Source: a virus. Taken from it: 34,246 bases of DNA. A program made the position numbers and the translations under genes. The stretch covers positions 1 to 34,246 of IMG/VR virus record IMGVR_UViG_3300036852_000133, one strand, 5' to 3'. The notes below the pieces were generated by a model, which saw nothing but the letters and a program-made list of their open reading frames with translations, searched no databases and was not told the origin of the DNA. Numbering within the stretch: the stretch's first letter is position 1; each line of letters begins with the position of its first letter. Of the stretch, positions 9,888 through 34,129 are shown piece by piece.

Positions 9888-11782
9888 TAGGGCAGGTACT
9901 TCTTAACGAGGTCATCAATTTGGGTTGGCGACACCGCAGGCGCAGGCGGCTTGATAGTCGCCGGCTTGAATTCATCGAAAGGCCCGAATGTCGGCAGGAC
10001 ATGCGCCTCATTCATCCTCTGATCTTTGGCAATCTGCCGATACATCCCCGCGTCCTGATCAAACATGCCTTGATAGGCCGTGATGCGACTCCTGGCTTCC
10101 TGCATGATTTGTGCGCGAAGTTCTGGCGTCAGGCGCCCGGATTCCGTCATCTGGCTCTTGATGGCTGCCTGAAGCTGCTGCGGCAGGGTCGCAATAGCCT
10201 GCGCCACCGTCATTTCGCTCTCGCGAACCACCGAGCCGGGGTCCATGATCTTCGCCATGCCATAGATCATGTTAACGTCGGCTGCTCGCGTGTCGCGCCC
10301 GGCGGCTTCCATCATCGACTTGTAGACCGGGGCAGCCTGCGCAACGTTCTTGTAGGACGGCAGACCCTGAATCTCGTTGCGGAGTTTCGAAGTCTCTTCC
10401 GACGACGCCGGCATGCCTTCCGAGGCAGCGCGCTTGGAAGCCGCTTCGCGAATTACCTTCGGGTCAATACCGGGCGCGATAGGAATAGGCTTTCCGTCAG
10501 AACCGGTGATGGTGGGCTGAGTAGTACCTTGCGGGGCCGCTGGTGTCGTTGATTTGTCGCGCGGATCGCGCCAACCGTATCGCTCGTTGCCGAACTCATC
10601 CTTTCCGATGACCCCAAATTCTGGTCCCTTGTTCGGCTCTCCCTTGGCCATTTCGCGCACGACGTTGCCGCGCTTGTCCATGACGATGATCTTGTTGCCG
10701 GCGTCGGCAGTTGTCACGCCTTCGCCCGAAATCGCACTTTGCAGCAGTGCCTGTGCCATCGCACGCGCGCCAGGGCTCCGCGATGACATGCCCGCCGCTA
10801 TTCGTTCGCGGGTTTCCTGCGGGAGACGAGAGAGTGGGTTTGTAGCAGGAGGGGCAGCAGCCTGCGCAGCGGTCGGCAGCGCACCCTGTGCTGGCGTAGC
10901 GCCCCGCGGAAGGGTTACATCTCCGGTTGGAGCGGTCAGGGCTGATGCGATTTGCGGAGCCGCCGCTGGTCTGCCGTTCTCGACCTCTGACATTGCCGCA
11001 ATCAGCCGAGGCCGCATCTCTGGCGTAATCGGATCGTTCGGGCCGATGCCGAGCTTCTTCGCAACCGCCGCGGCATAGGCAGCCGAGTTGTTTTCACCCT
11101 GCGGTGCCCAGCGGCCGATGATCCCGGCCGGCGTGTTGAGGCCGTACTTGCTCTCGTAGGTATCCAGCAGCTTGCTCGCCGCAGCGATGCCCTGATCTGG
11201 CGTCTCGAATCTTGCGAAACGGCCATCAGAACCAACGAAGCCGGGTTGCCCCTTCGTGAAATCGCCGGCTTCAATGTTCAGCGGGTTGTTGTTGCGGAGA
11301 CCGCGCGGGAGGTTTCCGTCAACCGGCCCGGCAGGAGCCGGCGCAGTTATGCCCGGCCGGAACGTGGTGGGTGCCGGGCCGGCCGCTGGGGGTGGTGCGT
11401 ACGCAGCCTGATCTGATGGAATGCCTGCAGGAGCAGCTAAGGCCGGTGGTGGTGCAACTGCAGGACTCGCTGGAACACCACCTCCCCCGCCATTCAGCAG
11501 CGCGGCCAGCTTCTGGAAACCGCCTGTAGGTGCCTCTGCGGCGGCCGCCGGCGGCGGCAGCCCGACCATCTTGTAGTTTTCCGCAATTTCGTTGGCCCTT
11601 TCGGCGCGGCGCTCTTCGCCGGCCTTGGAATATTCATAGCCGCCGAGGGCAGAGTTCGCGAGGTTGGCCAAACCTTGCGCCCAGTGCGTGACAGGCGCCT
11701 GCCCTTGCTCCATCAGCTTCTGCGCCATGGCGTAGCGCCGGGCGAGTGTGGCTTGATCGTATGAACCGCTGTCCGTTGGCAT
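9887..11782 (-). CDS. Internal virion protein with RNNNPxNI (P5-like) domain (631 aa)
   Basis: N-terminal helical part (1-70) is followed by a Pro/Ala-rich linker (75-157) and a recognisable domain at about 158-272: LPRGLRNNNPLNIEAG, GRFARFETPDQGIAAASKLL, WAPQGENNSAAYAAAVAKKLGI. This domain is common in virion-associated structural proteins and may help pass the cell wall, although catalytic activity is not proven for it. The C-terminal 250 residues are helical (TVAQAIATLPQQLQAAIKSQ). Start and stop overlap neighbours (TGATG, TAATG), so it is co-translated with two other ejection genes. Confidence 0.75.
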   Translation of the reverse strand: MPTDSGSYDQATLARRYAMAQKLMEQGQAPVTHWAQGLANLANSALGGYEYSKAGEERRAERANEIAENYKMVGLPPPAAAAEAPTGGFQKLAALLNGGGGGVPASPAVAPPPALAAPAGIPSDQAAYAPPPAAGPAPTTFRPGITAPAPAGPVDGNLPRGLRNNNPLNIEAGDFTKGQPGFVGSDGRFARFETPDQGIAAASKLLDTYESKYGLNTPAGIIGRWAPQGENNSAAYAAAVAKKLGIGPNDPITPEMRPRLIAAMSEVENGRPAAAPQIASALTAPTGDVTLPRGATPAQGALPTAAQAAAPPATNPLSRLPQETRERIAAGMSSRSPGARAMAQALLQSAISGEGVTTADAGNKIIVMDKRGNVVREMAKGEPNKGPEFGVIGKDEFGNERYGWRDPRDKSTTPAAPQGTTQPTITGSDGKPIPIAPGIDPKVIREAASKRAASEGMPASSEETSKLRNEIQGLPSYKNVAQAAPVYKSMMEAAGRDTRAADVNMIYGMAKIMDPGSVVRESEMTVAQAIATLPQQLQAAIKSQMTESGRLTPELRAQIMQEARSRITAYQGMFDQDAGMYRQIAKDQRMNEAHVLPTFGPFDEFKPATIKPPAPAVSPTQIDDLVKKYLP

Positions 11783-12789
11783 CAGGCAGCCTTCCCCAGT
11801 GCCATGAAGCCACGGGGTACCGCGTCATAGTTGACCATCAGGCCCTTGCGGTCACGCGCCACAGCGTGCGGGTAGACCTGCGCTACTTCCTGCGCGACCA
11901 AGCCGCGATTGCCCTTCTCGCCGCCAAATTCCGGCTTGTAGTCGAAGTCGATCACATGAAGGCCGTCTGCGCGCTCGCCGACGACTTCGATATTCTCCTT
12001 GGAATTGATATCCGAGCGCGCCCACCCGCCCAGCGCCGCCGAGCCGAGCCCGAATAGGCCTGACATGAGGGCATTATTCGATTGTGCTTGCATTTGAGCG
12101 TTCAGATTGCCCTGGTTCAGGCTCTGCTGTTGCGCACCGATCACATCGGTCGGCGCCACGCCCGGCTGTGGCGTGTTCGTGAATCCCGGCTGGGAAACCT
12201 GAGATCCCGAAAGCAGCGCCGTAATTTCATTGATCGGCTGATTGCGCTCGGTCAGCGCTTCCTGTGCTCCCTGCCCTCGACCTGTAAGATAAAGCTGGTT
12301 ATAGGCATCATTCTTCTGCTGGGCAAATTGCGTCTGCGCATCATTCCATGCCGCAGAGCCGGGACGAATTCCCTTGTTGATCAACTGAGCGTCGAGCGAA
12401 GCGCTTTCCTTCTGGAAGCGCGGGTCGAGCCTTGCCGCTCCCAGCTGGTTGATCTTCTCCTCAGTCGCCGTGCTCAGGTTGATCGGCTTGTTCAGCAACT
12501 CACCGATCTTGGCAGATTGAGACGTTCCGATATCGGCCAGATTGCCTTGGGTGATGAGGCTCTTGTTGTAGAGGTTCTGTTGCTCAGGGGAATAGGCAGT
12601 CGTCGCCTCGAACCGCGGCGTTCCGTCCGCCCATGTGCCGATTTGTTTATAGCTCAGGCTGCCCTGCGGCGTGACCTGGTTGGTCGCATTGAGACCGTAC
12701 TGGGCAACTGCGGTTTCCTTGTTCGCGGTTGCCTGTGCTGCAGCGGTTTTCGCGGGATCTGGGGCGGCTGGCGCCTGCGGTGCGTCGAT
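11782..12789 (-). CDS. Virion protein with C-terminal S74-like chaperone domain; apparent ATC start (335 aa)
   Basis: The frame is open and protein-like from just after the TAG at 12799-12801 to 11782. There is no in-frame ATG or GTG near its beginning; the first TTG (12498) would cut off about 97 residues that read well (DPAKTAAAQATANKETAVAQ, SYKQIGTWADGTPRFEA). A perfect AGGAGG is followed after five bases by ATC (12787-12789), so I set the start there: either a non-ATG start or an ATG lost by mutation or sequencing error. The C-terminus (about 258-335: SDINSKENIEVVGERADG, GLVAQEVAQVYPHAV) resembles the intramolecular chaperone Peptidase_S74 domain. Likely tail or ejection protein. Confidence 0.7.
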   Translation of the reverse strand: MDAPQAPAAPDPAKTAAAQATANKETAVAQYGLNATNQVTPQGSLSYKQIGTWADGTPRFEATTAYSPEQQNLYNKSLITQGNLADIGTSQSAKIGELLNKPINLSTATEEKINQLGAARLDPRFQKESASLDAQLINKGIRPGSAAWNDAQTQFAQQKNDAYNQLYLTGRGQGAQEALTERNQPINEITALLSGSQVSQPGFTNTPQPGVAPTDVIGAQQQSLNQGNLNAQMQAQSNNALMSGLFGLGSAALGGWARSDINSKENIEVVGERADGLHVIDFDYKPEFGGEKGNRGLVAQEVAQVYPHAVARDRKGLMVNYDAVPRGFMALGKAA

Positions 12790-22467: not shown

Positions 22468-24926
22468 GCATTTGCTCCGTTGACTGGCGCCTTTGCCTTC
22501 TTCTCGTCCGTCTTGGCCTTCATCGCGGCGGAATGCTCTGCAGTGGCAGCCTTGATCGATGCGGCATGAGCCTGCGCCCGCTCCTGCAAGGCCAGTTTCC
22601 GCTCCTCGAATGCCAGCTCCATTTCCATTCTCTCGCGCTCGATCGCCTGTTTGTCGGCCATGGCTTGGATTTCGGCGGCTTGCTTCTGCTGCTCCAGTTC
22701 AAATTGCTGTTGCGCCTGCTGCTGAGCCAATTGAGCATCCATCTGCTTGGCTTGCTGTTCCCGCTCGAAATTCTGCTGATCCATCAGCGCCTGCGCTTCC
22801 ATGCGCTTGTTCTCGTTGGCCTGCTGCTCACGCATCATTTCCGCCTTGATCTGGTCGGGCGTCGGAGGCGGCGGCGGTTTCGGCTTGGCGGCGTCCCGCG
22901 TCATGTCGTCGATAAACTGCTCGAAGGCGGACTCGATGTCCCTTGAGGCCTTGAAACCGCGCAGGAAGAACATCAGCAGGCGAGCAAGCAATGGCTTGAG
23001 TTCCGGAGACTGAGCGCCGGCAGCAACCGCTTGCGGCAGGAATTGCGAGATTGCACCCATCAATTCCGTACGCGCCTGCTGCATCTGCTGCTGGTCAGGC
23101 TCGATGATCGAATCCGTCTCGATGTCGATGCGGAAGCCGCGGAGCTTGTCGTTCCGTAAAAGCGCTACCGCCTTCTTGAACATGTCGGCGGCTTTTTGCA
23201 TCGCCAGCATTTGAGGGTCAGGCGGCGGCGCCATCATGCCCATAGGCATCTGCCCGCCCCCGGATGAGGATGCCGGACCGGGGACGGGCGCGCCAACAGC
23301 CGACGGAGGAGCGATGGCGGCTGGAGCTGGTTGATCGAGCGGCGGACCGCCATTGTGGCCCATCATCGGGGCCATTGGCGGCGCATCAGGCACTTCCGGC
23401 GGCCACTGCTCCTTGGCGTACTGCTCGAAACCGGAGATTTCGAACAGCGTCATCGGGTCGAAATGCTCGGCGATGATCTCGCCCATGATCCGCAGCGTAT
23501 CCCGCGCGAACCGGGCGACCTCGGCTTGCATGTCGTTCAGCCGCATCGAGGCGAACTGGCCCTTGATGCGCTGTTCAGTCGCTGTCTTCGCCCCGCCTTG
23601 GGAGGCGCCGCGAACGATGTCAGAAATCCCCGTGACTTCGTACAGAACCTGCTTGGTCCGCTCCCGCGCGTCGTATAATTGAATCAGGGTTTCCGCCATA
23701 TCCTTGATCGGCAGCATCCAGATATGGCCCATGCCGTTAGCGCCGGCCTTGGACGAGAATTCCGCCATGTTGTCGCAAGGAACCAGTTCGTTCTCGAATC
23801 CCTCTTTGAACATGCGCTGCAGTTCGGATACCGAGGCATCGTAGACGCCGCATGCCTTGATGGTCTTGACGAGGTTGGTGATGCGGGTGGTCAGGTCATC
23901 CAGTTCCTGCGCCTGATCCTCGTATTCCACGTAATCCGGGACCGGGATCAGCGAGTCATTGGTGAGAGTTGCGAACAACGGTTTCGGGACCGGCCAGAAG
24001 CTTTCGAGCCCAAGCGGGTCGTCCTTCTCGTCGAGCAGTCTTTCCTTGTAGGATTCCGCCATCCAGTAGACGCGGCGGACCTGTTTGTTCCAGATTTCCC
24101 AGACCTTGGCGCGGCGCTGCTTGGTGTCGCCTTCGGATATTTGCCCCCTTGCGGAGGACGAGGTTTCGACCGGCGACCAGTCCAGTGTGACCTCTTTGCC
24201 GACAGGTCCGAACCGTTTCACCAGTTCCTCACGGGTCATGTAGACCCGTTTGCCAACCCACCAGACTTCCTCCCACGTCCTTGCGGGAGAAGTCATGAAA
24301 TCGCGCCAGTCGATGTAATCGACAACTACCGATTCATCGGCGACCTGCTCGATCGGCGCGTCGGATGTGACCTCCTGAGGGCCAGCTTCAGGACGATCAT
24401 CAGCAACAGACGCCCCGACTCGCTCTTGCGATGTCGCGCCAGCAGCGATAGGAGCCTCACTGGCAGCCTCCTGTGTCTTGCCGGGCATCGGCGTGAACTT
24501 CGGCTCGTACCGAATCCAGACCACGCCCCGGCCCGGCAGAAGCCTGTCCAGCACGCCTTTCTTCAGGCCCGAGAGATACGTCCCATCGTCCAGCTCATAG
24601 GAAAGCGTGCGCTCCAGAATGACCGAGGCTGTCCGGCCTACTTCGTCACGGTCCAGATAGCGGCGCTCTACAACCGGCTTTGGCGCCTTGGCGAACAGCG
24701 CCGGCAACAGCGTCTGCACGTTCGACCACAGGATATTGAACCGCGCGCCTTCAAGGTTGTCGGAATTCTCCGAGACGTCAGGTCGCTCGGCCCGGTAGCG
24801 CTTGACGATACGCTCTGACCGCTTGTGCCACTGGTCAAAGCCCTTGGCTTTCCGGGAAAGTTCAAGTTCGTCGTTCCAACGCTGCCATGCAGACTGGCCG
24901 GGGGTATCTTCGTTGCTTTCAGCCAT
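22464..24926 (-). CDS. Portal protein, P22-like (820 aa)
   Basis: Start at ATG 24926 (MAESNEDTPGQSAWQRW); an upstream extension overlaps the previous gene. Large portal of the P22 type: N-terminal YRAERPDVSENSDNLEGARFNILWSNVQTLLPALFAKAP, stem region DYIDWRDFMTSPARTWEEVWWVGKRVYMTREELVKRFG, WEIWNKQVRRVYWM, and a crown helix ARERTKQVLYEVTGISDIVRGASQGGAKTATEQRIKGQFASMRL. The C-terminal about 200 residues are Gln/Glu-rich coiled coil (MDQQNFEREQQAKQMDAQLA), a barrel-like extension. It forms the dodecameric DNA entry ring. Confidence 0.92.
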   Translation of the reverse strand: MAESNEDTPGQSAWQRWNDELELSRKAKGFDQWHKRSERIVKRYRAERPDVSENSDNLEGARFNILWSNVQTLLPALFAKAPKPVVERRYLDRDEVGRTASVILERTLSYELDDGTYLSGLKKGVLDRLLPGRGVVWIRYEPKFTPMPGKTQEAASEAPIAAGATSQERVGASVADDRPEAGPQEVTSDAPIEQVADESVVVDYIDWRDFMTSPARTWEEVWWVGKRVYMTREELVKRFGPVGKEVTLDWSPVETSSSARGQISEGDTKQRRAKVWEIWNKQVRRVYWMAESYKERLLDEKDDPLGLESFWPVPKPLFATLTNDSLIPVPDYVEYEDQAQELDDLTTRITNLVKTIKACGVYDASVSELQRMFKEGFENELVPCDNMAEFSSKAGANGMGHIWMLPIKDMAETLIQLYDARERTKQVLYEVTGISDIVRGASQGGAKTATEQRIKGQFASMRLNDMQAEVARFARDTLRIMGEIIAEHFDPMTLFEISGFEQYAKEQWPPEVPDAPPMAPMMGHNGGPPLDQPAPAAIAPPSAVGAPVPGPASSSGGGQMPMGMMAPPPDPQMLAMQKAADMFKKAVALLRNDKLRGFRIDIETDSIIEPDQQQMQQARTELMGAISQFLPQAVAAGAQSPELKPLLARLLMFFLRGFKASRDIESAFEQFIDDMTRDAAKPKPPPPPTPDQIKAEMMREQQANENKRMEAQALMDQQNFEREQQAKQMDAQLAQQQAQQQFELEQQKQAAEIQAMADKQAIERERMEMELAFEERKLALQERAQAHAASIKAATAEHSAAMKAKTDEKKAKAPVNGANA

Positions 24927-30432: not shown

Positions 30433-31021
30433 TTCTAGCTCCAGTAGGCTGATATTTTTTGATATCGCGCATGCGATTGCGCCAAGTGGCTTTCCAGTTG
30501 AGCTTGACGCCCTTGGAGCCAGCAACGCTTGACCAGTAATCAATGAATTGAGGCGTCTCGGCTTCCACGATTTCCGGTGGAATTCCCAAGGACGCGGCAA
30601 ACGCGCGGTCTCCGTCGTCAATTGCGAAGTCCGGTGGAATTCTTGTCCCGCGCGCAATCCTCTTACTTTCTTTCTTTTCCTTAACTTCTTCTTTAACTTC
30701 CTTATTGGAAGCACCTTCTTTACTACTAAGTATACTAGCCACGTCCGGTGGATTCCGGTGGATTCCGGTGGAATGTCCGGTGGACACAGGTGGACATCCG
30801 GTGGAATTTGCGGACATGCGTTGCCGCCTTTTCCGTTCCCTGTCCCATGCACGGCGCTTGTCGATAGTCGAAGTGTCCACCGGACGGACATTCTCCTGTC
30901 CGGTGGAAACGGCCCTCGCCGCCATCGCCTCTTCGAGTGTCGCAACTGCGCTGACAATCAATTCCACCGGAATTCCCTTGCCGTGCATTTCAGCAATCAT
31001 GTTTGCAATCGGAGTTTTCAA
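30134..31021 (-). CDS. Replication protein, DnaT-like C-terminal domain, contains iteron cluster (295 aa)
   Basis: N-terminal helix (ANMIAEMHGKGIPVELIVSAVATL), charged RRAWDRERKRRQRMS at 57-70, a low-complexity stretch (72-125) encoded by iterons and an AT-rich tract, then RIPPDFAIDDGDRAFAASLG ... QFIDYWSS ... WKATWRNRM (127-184), a pattern found in phage replisome-organiser proteins related to the DnaT-type DNA-binding domain. Start overlaps the GapR gene stop (ATGA). The origin inside it (see 30573-30971) is the expected binding target, as lambda O binds ori inside its own gene. Role is inferred. Confidence 0.72.
   Translation of the reverse strand: MKTPIANMIAEMHGKGIPVELIVSAVATLEEAMAARAVSTGQENVRPVDTSTIDKRRAWDRERKRRQRMSANSTGCPPVSTGHSTGIHRNPPDVASILSSKEGASNKEVKEEVKEKKESKRIARGTRIPPDFAIDDGDRAFAASLGIPPEIVEAETPQFIDYWSSVAGSKGVKLNWKATWRNRMRDIKKYQPTGARNGQRTGNPRTTGHAAIFAAGLRAARKIVGDGEMAGPADEGEFSFGNWAVGGRPKAPDEPAGRDSAGDNRCKSGSEGVLEGEIIAPDKPHVGISSGWKHH
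30573..30971. repeat. Iteron cluster with AT-rich tract, probable phage replication origin
   Basis: Ten perfect copies of TCCGGTGGA: direct at 30573, 30630, 30744, 30754, 30764, 30776, 30797 and 30899, inverted (TCCACCGGA) at 30876 and 30963, plus a degenerate copy at 30786. Three neighbouring copies are exactly ten bases apart. A tract at 30661-30740 is 26/80 G+C, far below its surroundings. Iterons next to an easily melted region inside a replication gene form the classical phage origin. Function not tested. Confidence 0.65.
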
Positions 31022-31266
31022 CCCGCCATCCCCAACGCATGCATGTAGCTAGCGAGAATGGCTTCAGCCTCCGCACGCTTGTTCTGGTCCTGCCGGCGTA
31101 TGGCAACGACCTTCCGAATTATCTTCACGTCCAGGCCGTTAGATTTGGCCTCCTGGTAGATTTCCTTGATGCCCTCGGCAATCTCTGCCTTGGAGGCTTC
31201 TTCGCGCTCTACGCGCTCTACAATCGATTTAAGCTGGCTGTTGTCGCCTATTGTCGGCTCGGGCAT
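31018..31266 (-). CDS. GapR-family (DUF2312) nucleoid-associated protein (82 aa)
   Basis: Matches the alphaproteobacterial GapR family: LKSIVERVEREEASKAEIAEGIKEIYQEAKSNGLDVKIIRKVVAIRRQDQNKRAEAEAILASYMHALGM, including the charged EE-K--IAE-IKE-Y-EAK-NG-D-K-IRK helix and terminal YMHALGM. Cellular GapR binds overtwisted DNA and helps chromosome replication. A phage copy in the replication operon, directly before a replication gene, may open or constrain phage DNA or interfere with the host protein. Length is normal for the family. Family identification is strong; role is inference. Confidence 0.92.
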   Translation of the reverse strand: MPEPTIGDNSQLKSIVERVEREEASKAEIAEGIKEIYQEAKSNGLDVKIIRKVVAIRRQDQNKRAEAEAILASYMHALGMAG

Positions 31267-31444: not shown

Positions 31445-31686
31445 CCCGCTGCCCTCTGCATGAACAACGGCGGCGGCTCGATCGCTTCCATGAAGGCCTT
31501 CTCGTCCAAGACGAAACGATGGTCATCATCGATCCACTTGCGCGCGCCGATGAATATTTCATGGATGTGATCGGTAGCGCCGGCATCATCTGCTGCGACT
31601 GTCACGGCCGTTGCTGATGCCGGCGCCATCTCTGCCGGGGGCTGGCTTTCGGCAGAAAGGAATGGGGATTGGGGAATATCGGTCAT
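31441..31686 (-). CDS. Small hypothetical protein (81 aa)
   Basis: Start ATG 31686 in an ATGA overlap with the GcrA-like gene. N-terminal 40 residues are Ala/Pro-rich and disordered; the rest (DHIHEIFIGARKWIDDDHRFVLDEKAFMEAIEPPPLF) is a compact charged segment. A longer upstream frame is a shadow of the GcrA-like gene. Function unknown. Confidence 0.6.
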   Translation of the reverse strand: MTDIPQSPFLSAESQPPAEMAPASATAVTVAADDAGATDHIHEIFIGARKWIDDDHRFVLDEKAFMEAIEPPPLFMQRAAG

Positions 31687-32204
31687 CGGGCATTCTCCAA
31701 AAGCGCGCGGCGGAAATTGATGCCACGCATCCTGCGGGCTCGGGCGTTGGTGACGGCTTCGCTGTTCGTGCGGGCACGCATCTTGGTAAGGTGGAAATGC
31801 TCGGTGCAGTAGGAGCCGCCATCCGTTACTCGGCCGCAGAATGTGAATTGTGGACCTTCGCCGAATGGATACCGGCAGTCGTTCGGTTCGAGCTGGTCTA
31901 GCGTCAGGTGACGCGGTTCGATCTCGGCGCAGCGAAGCTGGATCTCTTCCACACGCGGGAGCGGCTTGATGGCGGCCGCTCGATCTCGGCCCCGCTTCCG
32001 TTTCTTGGGTGCCGCTTTCACCTTCTGCGGCGCCGCCAATCCAAGGCGGTATCCCTTCCCGCATGCTGCGTTGCGGGAGTAGTTGGTGTTGAACTGTGCA
32101 TTCAGCTCGGCTGCGATTTGAGAAAATGATTTGCCGGTAGCCAACATCGTTGTTAGTGCCTCGGATTGTTCATCCGTCCAGATCGTGTTGACGTGCCCGC
32201 CCAT
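31683..32204 (-). CDS. GcrA-family cell-cycle regulator homologue (173 aa)
   Basis: N-terminal helix-turn-helix WTDEQSEALTTMLATGKSFSQIAAELNAQFNTNYSRNAACGKGYRLGL (split over residues 9-56) is the GcrA DNA-binding pattern (SQIAAEL..., SRNAACGK-RLG). A basic linker (KKRKRGRDR) leads to the C-terminal Cys/His part CRYPFGEGPQF, CGRVTDGGSYCTEHF (Cys110, Cys123, Cys133, His136), like the sigma70-interacting region. Host GcrA activates promoters holding methylated GANTC. The phage protein may redirect or imitate this. It heads a coupled run with three other genes. Confidence 0.9.
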   Translation of the reverse strand: MGGHVNTIWTDEQSEALTTMLATGKSFSQIAAELNAQFNTNYSRNAACGKGYRLGLAAPQKVKAAPKKRKRGRDRAAAIKPLPRVEEIQLRCAEIEPRHLTLDQLEPNDCRYPFGEGPQFTFCGRVTDGGSYCTEHFHLTKMRARTNSEAVTNARARRMRGINFRRALLENAR

Positions 32205-32214
32205 TCAGTTGCCC

Positions 32215-32583
32215 CTAATTCTTGCCCAAAAGAGCCTTAGCCGCCCGCACAGCAGCGTGATCAGGCCCGGTAATTTCCTCGGTAATTCTGATTTCATGTT
32301 CCAGCTTTCGCATTTGTCGTCCGCACTCTGCGCGATAAGCCGCCCTGATGCTCTCGTAGACCGAGATGCTGATTGTCCTCAGTCGGTCCCGGCGATAGCG
32401 AAGCGACCAGAGGAATCCGTAATCAATTCCATACTCTCGTTCGATCTGGCGCATCGCGTTCTCGGTGTCGCCTGGTCCGCGCGCTTTCATGCGCGTAAGG
32501 TCTTTCGACCATCTCTGAGCGGCGTCGATGTAAGCGGCGTCGGACACTGGCAAACCCTTTTTCACCTTTGCAAATCCTTCCAT
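32215..32583 (-). CDS. Hypothetical phage protein (122 aa)
   Basis: First gene of the leftward operon, ATG 32583; no good Shine-Dalgarno is visible. Helical and basic: AAYIDAAQRWSKDLTRMKARGPGDTENAMRQIEREYGIDYGFLWSLRYRRDRLRTISISVYESIRAAYRAECGRQMRKLEHEIR with some similarity in style to phage DNA-binding or DNA-modulation proteins. Divergent from the rightward gene beginning at 32599, only 15 bases apart. Function unknown. Confidence 0.68.
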   Translation of the reverse strand: MEGFAKVKKGLPVSDAAYIDAAQRWSKDLTRMKARGPGDTENAMRQIEREYGIDYGFLWSLRYRRDRLRTISISVYESIRAAYRAECGRQMRKLEHEIRITEEITGPDHAAVRAAKALLGKN

Positions 32584-32838: not shown

Positions 32839-32866
32839 AACGCGCGGCGTAAATTGCGCGTATGGA

Positions 32867-32905
32867 GAGCCGGGCGATGGTTGACCCCCCGACATCGCCC
32901 GGCTC
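32867..32905. terminator. Perfect 13-bp inverted repeat between convergent small genes
   Basis: GAGCCGGGCGATG (32867-32879) pairs with CATCGCCCGGCTC (32893-32905), loop of 13 bases. It follows the 79-aa rightward gene and faces the 22-aa leftward ORF, so it may be a bidirectional transcription stop. No U-tract follows either arm, so a protein-binding palindrome or Rho-aided stop is equally possible. Confidence 0.5.
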
Positions 32906-32918
32906 GTTCTCCAGTGCG

Positions 32919-32987
32919 TCATTGCGGCACCGCCAGCGTCAGCAGAACGAAAGCCATAAAGAGCACGAAGGCGACGTCGGCTATCAT
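32919..32987 (-). CDS. Tiny membrane peptide (22 aa)
   Basis: ATG 32987 with GTGGAGG about nine bases upstream, an unusually good ribosome-binding site. Product MIADVAFVLFMAFVLLTLAVPQ is one hydrophobic helix. Such peptides occur in phage immunity regions (exclusion or toxin-like), but 22 residues is short and the call depends on the strong site. Its stop overlaps the start of another leftward frame (ATGA at 32922). Confidence 0.35.
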   Translation of the reverse strand: MIADVAFVLFMAFVLLTLAVPQ

Positions 32988-33125: not shown

Positions 33126-33752
33126 ATGAACAACGTGGTTCGTTTTCCGCGTGCTCATACGCGCGCCTCTTCATTCCGTGAAATTTCTGGGCGGGCTACT
33201 TCTGAAGGCCATGGCGCTTCCTCTGGCCATCGGTCAGAGAACCAAGTTATCACTTCATCATATTTGCGAGCGGTGAACGTCTTGCCGTCGTCGTCCAAGC
33301 GATCGAAGAAGCGCCAATCCCCGGCGGCCAAGCGCCCCAAGGTTGCCAAGCTGACCGACCGCGCCGCAGCATATGCGGAAGCGCAGGCCATGAGATTTGA
33401 ACGCAGTTCGGATTCCATGGAAATGGAGGATAGTCGGAAAATTCCGACTTCGCAAGATATTTCTGTCGGAAACTTCCGACTGGCCCAACCGGCTGAAAAG
33501 TCGGATAAATCCGCTATGCCTACCCTTGACCAGATACGGCTCACGATCACCAAGGCCCTCGATAAGCAGGGAACTGGCGCCGTTACGGTTGCTCAGGAGC
33601 TCGGGCTGGAGCGGAACCATATAAGGGACTTCCTCAAAGGGGATAAAAACTCCCTCAAAACCGAGGTTATGCTGTCCCTTTCCGAGTATCTCGGCATCCC
33701 CTTCAAAGACTTAGTTATTTCCAAAGAAAAGAAGCTTCGGCGTAGCGCCTAG
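33126..33752 (+). CDS. Cro/CI-like HTH regulator (208 aa; a start at 33516 is possible)
   Basis: The last 78 residues (from ATG 33516) form a Cro/CI-type helix-turn-helix: DQIRLTITKALDK, VTVAQELGLERNHIRDFLKG, MLSLSEYLGIPFKDLV. The longer frame from ATG 33126 adds MNNVVRFPRAHTRASSF and a Ser/Lys-rich, low-order middle that lies antisense to a good leftward frame (33155-33418). Three operators sit in the frame just before 33516, so the real regulator may be the 78-residue form with operators upstream, or the 208-residue form may carry them inside its gene. No protease domain is present, so SOS cleavage is not expected. Confidence 0.65.
   Translation: MNNVVRFPRAHTRASSFREISGRATSEGHGASSGHRSENQVITSSYLRAVNVLPSSSKRSKKRQSPAAKRPKVAKLTDRAAAYAEAQAMRFERSSDSMEMEDSRKIPTSQDISVGNFRLAQPAEKSDKSAMPTLDQIRLTITKALDKQGTGAVTVAQELGLERNHIRDFLKGDKNSLKTEVMLSLSEYLGIPFKDLVISKEKKLRRSA
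33155..33418 (-). CDS. Candidate leftward small regulator or HTH-like protein (87 aa)
   Basis: ATG 33418, antisense to the middle of the 33126-33752 frame. Residues about 14-75 are strongly protein-like: AYAAARSVSLATLGRLAAGDWRFFDRLDDDG, KTFTARKYDEVITWFSDRWPEEAPWPSEVARP. The first part resembles a small helix-turn-helix, and the W-rich end recalls short proteins of Bradyrhizobium-type hosts. If real, it would be divergent from the HTH gene at 33516, with all three operators in the 97 bases between: the lambda OR layout. No Shine-Dalgarno is visible, so this remains uncertain. Confidence 0.45.
   Translation of the reverse strand: MESELRSNLMACASAYAAARSVSLATLGRLAAGDWRFFDRLDDDGKTFTARKYDEVITWFSDRWPEEAPWPSEVARPEISRNEEARV
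33432..33449. promoter_or_regulatory. Operator 1, palindrome
   Basis: AGTCGGAAAATTCCGACT, arms of eight bases perfect apart from the central two. First of three in-frame sites upstream of the HTH segment. Centre-to-centre distance to operator 2 is 32 bases, about three helical turns. Confidence 0.65.
33464..33481. promoter_or_regulatory. Operator 2, palindrome
   Basis: TGTCGGAAACTTCCGACT, seven-base perfect arms GTCGGAA/TTCCGAC. Member of the 33432-33515 triad. Confidence 0.65.
33499..33515. promoter_or_regulatory. Operator 3, imperfect palindrome
   Basis: AGTCGGATAAATCCGCT: left half matches exactly; the right half has lost one base (TCCGCT for TCCGACT). It abuts ATG 33516, so binding here would block translation-proximal transcription of the short HTH gene. 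Confidence 0.5.
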
Positions 33753-33760
33753 AGCAGTAC

Positions 33761-33787
33761 AGCCTCCCCTGAGGCTAAAATTATTTT
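33761..33787 (+). terminator. Terminator-like hairpin after the HTH gene
   Basis: AGCCTC (33761-33766) pairs with GAGGCT (33771-33776), loop CCCT, followed by AAAATTATTTT. Position just after the stop at 33752 fits a rightward intrinsic terminator. The stem is short and the tail is not a pure U-run. Confidence 0.42.
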
Positions 33788-33795
33788 GGCCCTCA

Positions 33796-33813
33796 TGTCG
33801 GATTTTTCCGACT
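33796..33813. promoter_or_regulatory. Operator 4, palindrome
   Basis: TGTCGGATTTTTCCGACT, centre 29 bases before operator 5 and immediately upstream of the -35 hexamer at 33820. Confidence 0.65.
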
Positions 33814-33819
33814 TAGTTA

Positions 33820-33847
33820 TTGACAGTCGGATTTTTCCGACTATGCT
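33820..33847 (+). promoter_or_regulatory. Rightward early promoter (putative)
   Basis: Perfect -35 TTGACA (33820-33825), 16-base spacer, -10-like TATGCT (33842-33847; TAT and final T conserved). It would start a transcript near 33854 leading into the gene at 33875. The spacer is operator 5, so the regulator would occlude RNA polymerase. Confidence 0.65.
33825..33842. promoter_or_regulatory. Operator 5, palindrome in promoter spacer
   Basis: AGTCGGATTTTTCCGACT, differing from operator 4 only in the first base. It spans from the last base of TTGACA to the first of TATGCT, the classical place for repression. Confidence 0.7.
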
Positions 33848-33874
33848 TGCCCCCATCAGATCGGGAGCAACCAC

Positions 33875-34129
33875 ATGGAACAGCGCCGCCGCCATTTCTT
33901 CCCTGAGAATGACTGCACCGTCATCACGGGCCTGTGCCCGAATGGTCAGTACGGCGCGACCCGCGAGGATGAAGACGAAGGTCTGATCCGCGGCTACGGC
34001 CACACCCGCCTCGCCGCGATTGCCGATCTGGTCTGGTCCATCAGCAACACCGAGGAAGAGGAAGAGCGCAACAACGCTGACTTCGAACTCGACCACGCCC
34101 GCGACTATCGCAAGCACGAGGTGGCGTGA
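33875..34129 (+). CDS. First gene of operator-controlled rightward operon (84 aa)
   Basis: ATG 33875 with GGGAG seven bases upstream. EQRRRHFFPENDCTVITGLCPNGQYGATREDEDEGLIRGYGHTRLAAIADLVWSISNTEEEEERNN...: a mixed protein with one beta-rich end and an acidic tail. No known domain. Being the first gene after the operator-controlled promoter, it is an early lytic gene, perhaps a Cro-position or anti-host factor; this is positional inference. Its stop overlaps the next start (TGATG). Confidence 0.7.
   Translation: MEQRRRHFFPENDCTVITGLCPNGQYGATREDEDEGLIRGYGHTRLAAIADLVWSISNTEEEEERNNADFELDHARDYRKHEVA

Follow-up and report, generated by a model that had tools for sequence, protein, structure and literature searches.

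An initial annotation of this DNA reported five palindromes grouped around a gene for a Cro/CI-type helix-turn-helix (HTH) protein, in a layout like that of phage lambda and with one site inside a consensus promoter. This raises the question of whether the locus is the genetic switch of a temperate phage, and if so which genes and sites make it up. The window analyzed here, 34,246 bases long, comprises an entire IMG/VR virus record, an incomplete contig. We conclude, with a probability of roughly 90%, that the region is a lambda-type immunity region (OR/OL) of a temperate alphaproteobacterial phage and works like that of lambda.

The operator array

Scanning the window for AGTCGGA-N4-TCCGACT with up to three mismatches in the 18-mer returned six matches, five of which are the reported sites. 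None of 100 shuffled versions of the window gave six (the shuffle mean was 1.4), so the five-palindrome array is real. The sole further near match, at 24759-24774 with one core mismatch, falls within the portal gene; a scatter of matches across unrelated genes, which would have spoken against operators, is absent within the phage record. Between 33433 and 33841 there are four perfect GTCGGA-N4-TCCGAC sites of 16 bp and one imperfect site, the third, with two mismatches in its arms. The core spacings are 32, 35 and 29 bp, which confirms two of the values originally given (about 32 and 29) and corrects the other (34). The features of the region are as follows.

33155-33418, minus strand: gene in the cro position, 87 aa, phrog_7669 (annotated as of unknown function), predicted to form four helices and to be HTH-like
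33427-33455, minus strand: leftward (pR-like) promoter, from a reading of the sequence and its conservation in relatives
33433-33448: O1 (OR1-like), GTCGGAAAATTCCGAC, perfect, in the 17-bp spacer of the leftward promoter; position shared by nearly all of the 48 related upstream regions examined
33465-33480: O2 (OR2-like), GTCGGAAACTTCCGAC, perfect, its center 43.5 bp from the repressor ATG
33500-33515: O3 (OR3-like), GTCGGATAAATCCGCT, imperfect, adjoining the repressor ATG
33516-33752, plus strand: cI-like repressor gene, 78 aa, lambda-repressor-fold HTH without an S24 domain, predicted to be leaderless
33761-33784, plus strand: terminator-like hairpin, AGCCTCCCCTGAGGCT, with an A/T-rich tail, directly 3' of the repressor gene
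33797-33812: OL2-like site, GTCGGATTTTTCCGAC, perfect
33820-33847, plus strand: rightward (pL-like) promoter
33826-33841: OL1-like site, GTCGGATTTTTCCGAC, perfect, the whole spacer of the rightward promoter
33875-34129, plus strand: first open reading frame (ORF) of the rightward operon, 84 aa, without a convincing family

The leftward promoter reads TTGCGA (33455-33450), a 17-bp spacer made up of O1 and one further base, and TATCCT (33432-33427), and the ATG of the leftward gene follows 8 bases past this -10. The rightward promoter had been recognized correctly as a TTGACA/TATGCT promoter with the fifth site as its spacer: between TTGACA (33820-33825) and TATGCT (33842-33847) there are 16 bp, exactly site 5. 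A short CCCATC-type sequence after the rightward -10, near the expected transcription start (33848-33858), recurs in relatives. The center of O3, GGATAAATCC, could serve as the -10 of pRM, for which no -35 is recognizable. With promoters read in this way from sequence, operators overlap both pR and pRM, O1 lying in the leftward spacer and O3 beside the repressor start.

Two divergent genes around three sites

The three sites of 33433-33515 separate what appear to be a rightward cI-like gene and a leftward cro-like gene, with related operators between them. The annotation had assigned operator binding to the product of an ORF at 33126-33752, or to its 78-residue form. We rejected the full-length ORF as the regulator: toward its N-terminus it runs antisense to a conserved gene (the leftward gene at 33155-33418 lies opposite a large share of the first 130 codons), and homologues place the rightward start at 33516. 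Between the leftward gene and its homologue in a related contig (L085) we counted 6, 6 and 41 changes at the three codon positions, with dN 0.09 and dS 2.4, so the leftward strand and frame are under selection. It follows that the 33126-33752 ORF, mostly a shadow ORF, overlaps a real gene on the opposite strand, and that its true part runs from the ATG at 33516. The HTH between the two groups of sites was thus rightly identified, the 78-residue form being the correct one; what had been overlooked is the leftward, cro-position gene together with the promoter whose spacer site 1 fills. In a comparison of four repressor gene sequences, dN was 0.20-0.39 and dS was close to saturation or beyond it. 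By computation, both genes are under purifying selection, with dN far below dS.

Conservation in related phages

Used alone as a query, the 78-aa repressor gave no relatives in viral_contigs and, among named phages, only two weak matches (E 0.1 or worse). Because the repressor by itself found no usable relatives, operator-first and neighbor-first searches were needed. An operator-only scan of viral_contigs for pairs of GTCGGA-N4-TCCGAC sites with starts separated by 24-38 bp returned 11 contigs, 10 of which encode both a repressor-like HTH and a phrog_7669 gene. The HTH runs rightward and has the motif LERN(Y/F/H)IRD or GKGRDYL; the divergent protein has 80-90 aa and begins MExELRxNL. The eleventh contig (L008) was discarded as unrelated, since there the motif repeats inside a coding gene. 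Its four GTCGGAGAAATCCGAC palindromes (11863-12013) lie in an ORF (11294-12304) that encodes repeated SSEKSD-like peptides, and could be origin iterons within a replication gene.

Scanning viral contigs with an alignment of the leftward protein gave 50 loci, and 48 non-identical upstream regions were examined. O1 lies about 30 bp before the ATG in the cro position and in most regions fills the spacer of a TTG-N16/17-TATNNT-type promoter. The distance from O2 to O3 is 35 bp in 43 of the 48 regions, where both sites were sought in short stretches around their expected places, a procedure that favors regular spacing. From O1 to O2 the distance is 31-32 bp in the group that includes the window and 21-23 bp in the remaining regions. 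O3 touches the repressor ATG without a gap in 37 of the 45 loci with a called start, and the divergent start codons are mostly 88-98 bp apart. This geometry supports the lambda-like layout first proposed, with one site inside a consensus promoter.

The arms themselves differ between phages (GTCGGA, GTAGGA, GTGGGA, AGCGGA and GTTGTA), and at two of the three sites they vary in a way that preserves the palindrome. Complementary positions number 259 in the O1 arms (mean of shuffles 232) and 227 in the O3 arms (mean of shuffles 194); in neither case did any of 2,000 shuffles reach the observed value. The O2 arms are often asymmetric and show no covariation (567 of 2,000 shuffles reach the observed value).

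On the far side of the repressor gene, 33 of the 48 loci have a two-site OL array whose arms are of the same type. Under a stricter rule, a locus-matched OL pair was present in 28 of 44 loci, compared with 0-2 (mean 0.3) for decoys, which were 20 palindromic sets with permuted arms of the same composition. In nearly every case the inner OL site fills a TTGAC(A/G) promoter that points away from the repressor. Some loci have no OL pair within reach, partly as a result of cut sequence or long cargo.

A further 29 phages (L017-L045) share a neighboring 122-aa gene (32215-32583 in the window, minus strand) and have neither these operator arrays nor the gene pair, so the immunity module is exchanged between related phages. 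The exact tandem pattern was also tried as a marker in genome_contigs, where only three of 34 loci (L074, L081 and L084) gave family matches. Tandem GTCGGA-N4-TCCGAC copies in Myxococcaceae (L057-L059, L062-L064, L075) and Halorubrum (L052, L061, L077) lack the gene pair and are apparently unrelated repeats. With the gene pair missing from most of the genome_contigs loci that have the motif, the motif cannot serve as a diagnostic by itself.

The protein in the cro position

The 87-aa protein matches the phrog_7669 profile over residues 3-85 (E 6e-22). It shows no sequence similarity to HTH families and no relative in the PDB by profile, and comparison of its family profile with that of the CI HTH is not significant. 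Searches of the open literature returned no description of phrog_7669, the operator or the region. This lack of recognizable kinship would suit a different role, in which the operators are the same and only the CI-like protein reads them, with the phrog_7669 protein acting on the repressor in the manner of Mor/Coi-type antirepressors or corepressors.

We regard that role as unlikely, if worth keeping in mind, in view of the predicted structure. Modeled with moderate confidence (pLDDT 77), the protein has four helices (residues 2-20, 24-31, 37-42 and 50-63) in the same order and with the same spacing as those of the repressor HTH. Its structural matches in the PDB are weak (best probability 0.57), and nearly all of them are XRE-type HTH proteins. 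In addition, each of the 27 loci whose operators have C at arm position 3 retains G33 and W35, two residues at the start of the putative recognition helix, and changes at these residues occur only where the operators are of other types (Fisher p = 0.003 for W35). In the repressor, residue 34 (N/D) is likewise associated with this C (Fisher p = 0.0005). As few independent changes on the tree underlie them, these associations are no more than suggestive for both proteins; with phylogeny controlled, there were too few independent pairs for the comparison.

The repressor and its C-terminal module

The 78-aa protein matches the profile phrog_4583, 'transcriptional repressor' (E 4e-5), scores 20.2 bits against Pfam HTH_3, below the cut-off of 23, and weakly resembles YdaS (E 0.0036). 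Its structure, predicted with good confidence (pLDDT 85), is a four-helix HTH of the lambda-repressor type, with helices at residues 4-18, 22-28, 35-41 and 49-59. Compared with the PDB, this model matches C.AhdI, P22 c2 and lambda CI at a probability of 1.00, with E-values of only 0.03-0.3, unsurprising for a domain of this size. Profile and predicted fold both place the protein among Cro/CI-type (lambda-repressor-like) HTH proteins.

A Peptidase_S24 domain is present in 31 of 44 homologous repressors and absent from that of the window. This absence, in a record that is itself an incomplete 34-kb contig, could mean that the repressor is a decayed remnant and the region part of a defective prophage. 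Such decay is improbable, since the same 76-79-residue form occurs in four other contigs (L085, L086, L088 and L094), an OL array directly follows each short repressor gene, the dN and dS values given above indicate constraint, and a terminator-like hairpin follows the stop codon. Instead of S24, the repressors of five loci (L107, L110, L111, L113 and L115), about 195 aa long, have a second HTH-like segment. Across the family, the C-terminal module has been swapped more than once, and the operators have stayed.

A reading of the palindromes as RNA hairpins (terminators or attenuators), or as copies of a dispersed DNA repeat, is very hard to sustain: one site, 33797-33812, does score as terminator-like, and tandem copies occur in unrelated genomes (most of the 34 genome loci, and L008 within a coding gene), but in dozens of phages the sites keep fixed positions relative to promoters and start codons, and OR and OL arms match locus by locus. 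Binding of the phage proteins to the sites is putative, and a host regulator might be their main ligand, a proposal just as implausible given that operator variants differ from phage to phage, match between the OR and OL of the same phage and always flank the phage's own HTH gene.

Genomic surroundings and host

Leftward lie genes for a replication initiation protein, terminase, portal and capsid. The capsid protein shares 54% identity with its counterpart in Bradyrhizobium phage ppBjS10J-1, which makes an alphaproteobacterium near Bradyrhizobium the probable host. Beyond the cro-position gene there are, by Pfam, phage-encoded homologues of two cell-cycle regulators of alphaproteobacteria, GcrA (31683-32204, minus strand, E 6.5e-25) and GapR (31018-31266, minus strand, E 8e-28). 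The interval from the cro-position gene to the gene that follows it leftward contains a strong GC-rich hairpin (32855-32925, minus strand, z -2.8) without an Rfam match. Neither a tRNA scan nor an Rfam scan found anything in the window. The end of the contig cuts the rightward side; the corresponding operon of a close relative (L010) includes genes for Rad52 and an integrase. Replication on the leftward side of the window and recombination and integration on the rightward side of L010 correspond to the division between pR and pL in lambda.

A proposed model of the switch

Computation establishes the sites, the promoter sequences that contain them, the gene pair, its constant geometry, the palindrome-preserving variation, the locus-matched OL and the purifying selection on both genes. 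The occupancy of each site by each protein, the polarity of repression and activation, the leaderless mRNAs and the mode of induction are inferred by us as follows. In a lysogen, repressor dimers on O1 and OL1, both within -35/-10 spacers, would exclude RNA polymerase and shut both lytic promoters, with OL1 and OL2 (33797-33841) controlling the rightward early operon. From O2, centered about 43 bp ahead of the repressor ATG, the repressor would probably activate pRM as lambda CI does from OR2, which lies near -42. Occupation of O3 would block pRM, either by the repressor or, more likely, by the Cro-position protein, whose site preference would be opposite to the repressor's. With GGATAAATCC as its -10, pRM would start transcription at the repressor ATG; given this placement and the leftward ATG 8 bases after the other -10, both mRNAs are probably leaderless. 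Because the window repressor is a DNA-binding domain alone, RecA-stimulated self-cleavage is impossible for it, and dimerization, cooperativity and induction have to come about by other means. For a lambda-type CI octamer that loops the DNA from OR to OL there is no known basis here.

A wider proposal, to which we give slightly less than even odds, is that phrog_7669 is an unrecognized Cro family defining a widespread alphaproteobacterial switch of the lambda type with a fixed, leaderless geometry. In this proposal the window's group has shed the SOS-cleavable domain and kept its operators, so that exit from lysogeny would be uncoupled from RecA self-cleavage and would answer to another trigger.

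The less usual features of the region are the S24-less repressor, found in the window and four relatives, and a Cro-position protein without a characterized relative. The analysis gives phrog_7669, a family of unknown function, a function that can be tested, and it brings to light the operator code of many temperate phages, rhizobial and related, together with their immunity groups. In nature, these phages also pair the same operators with repressors that have S24, a second HTH domain or neither, a series in which the contribution of the C-terminal domain to a genetic switch can be tested directly.

Comparison with known systems

The region shares with lambda the divergent cI and cro genes around three operators, a second operator array at a far early promoter, replication on one side and recombination and integration on the other (as seen in L010), and a repressor start without a leader; the lambda cI mRNA is leaderless (PMC8630535). 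It differs in its unrelated operator sequence, its wider spacings of 32 and 35 bp, its two OL sites where lambda has three, and a Cro-position protein from an unrelated or very remote family. The window repressor, at 78 aa, also lacks a C-terminal domain, and among the features of a strict lambdoid region that we tested, this S24/LexA-type domain, which serves autocleavage and cooperativity, was the one absent.

The three-plus-two arrangement, which had appeared distinctive in the initial annotation, is not, since the immB regions of N15 and phiKO2 also have three OR and two OL sites (PMC4488713). The immB of PY54 has only OR3, and its cI and cro mRNAs have been mapped as leaderless (PMC4488713), as we predict here. 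Host group, operator sequence and proteins are different in all three.

In the PaaR2-YdaS region of CP-933P, the divergent start codons are 97 bp apart, compared with 88-98 bp here, the repressor is leaderless, a small HTH protein is the Cro analogue, and 18-bp palindromes are joined by a second array at PL (PMC8630535). That region has four evenly spaced palindromes and a second type of repeat (PMC8630535). It also includes a toxin-antitoxin pair, whereas the window has none, and the weak resemblance to YdaS in the window is on the CI side.

Cultured counterparts are Agrobacterium phage Rivra and Rhizobium phage RR1-A. Their arms (GTGGGA in Rivra, GCGTA in RR1-A) differ from those of the window, and a tRNA gene directly follows the cro-position gene (Leu-CAG, L135:3764-3839, and Met-CAT, L136:3655-3731, respectively). 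The Rivra annotation also lists a CII-like gene downstream of the one in the cro position. Both phages share with the window the repressor gene, a divergent 'hypothetical protein' of the phrog_7669 type, and O1/O2 together with a distal pair of matching arms, a layout that is unannotated in either phage.
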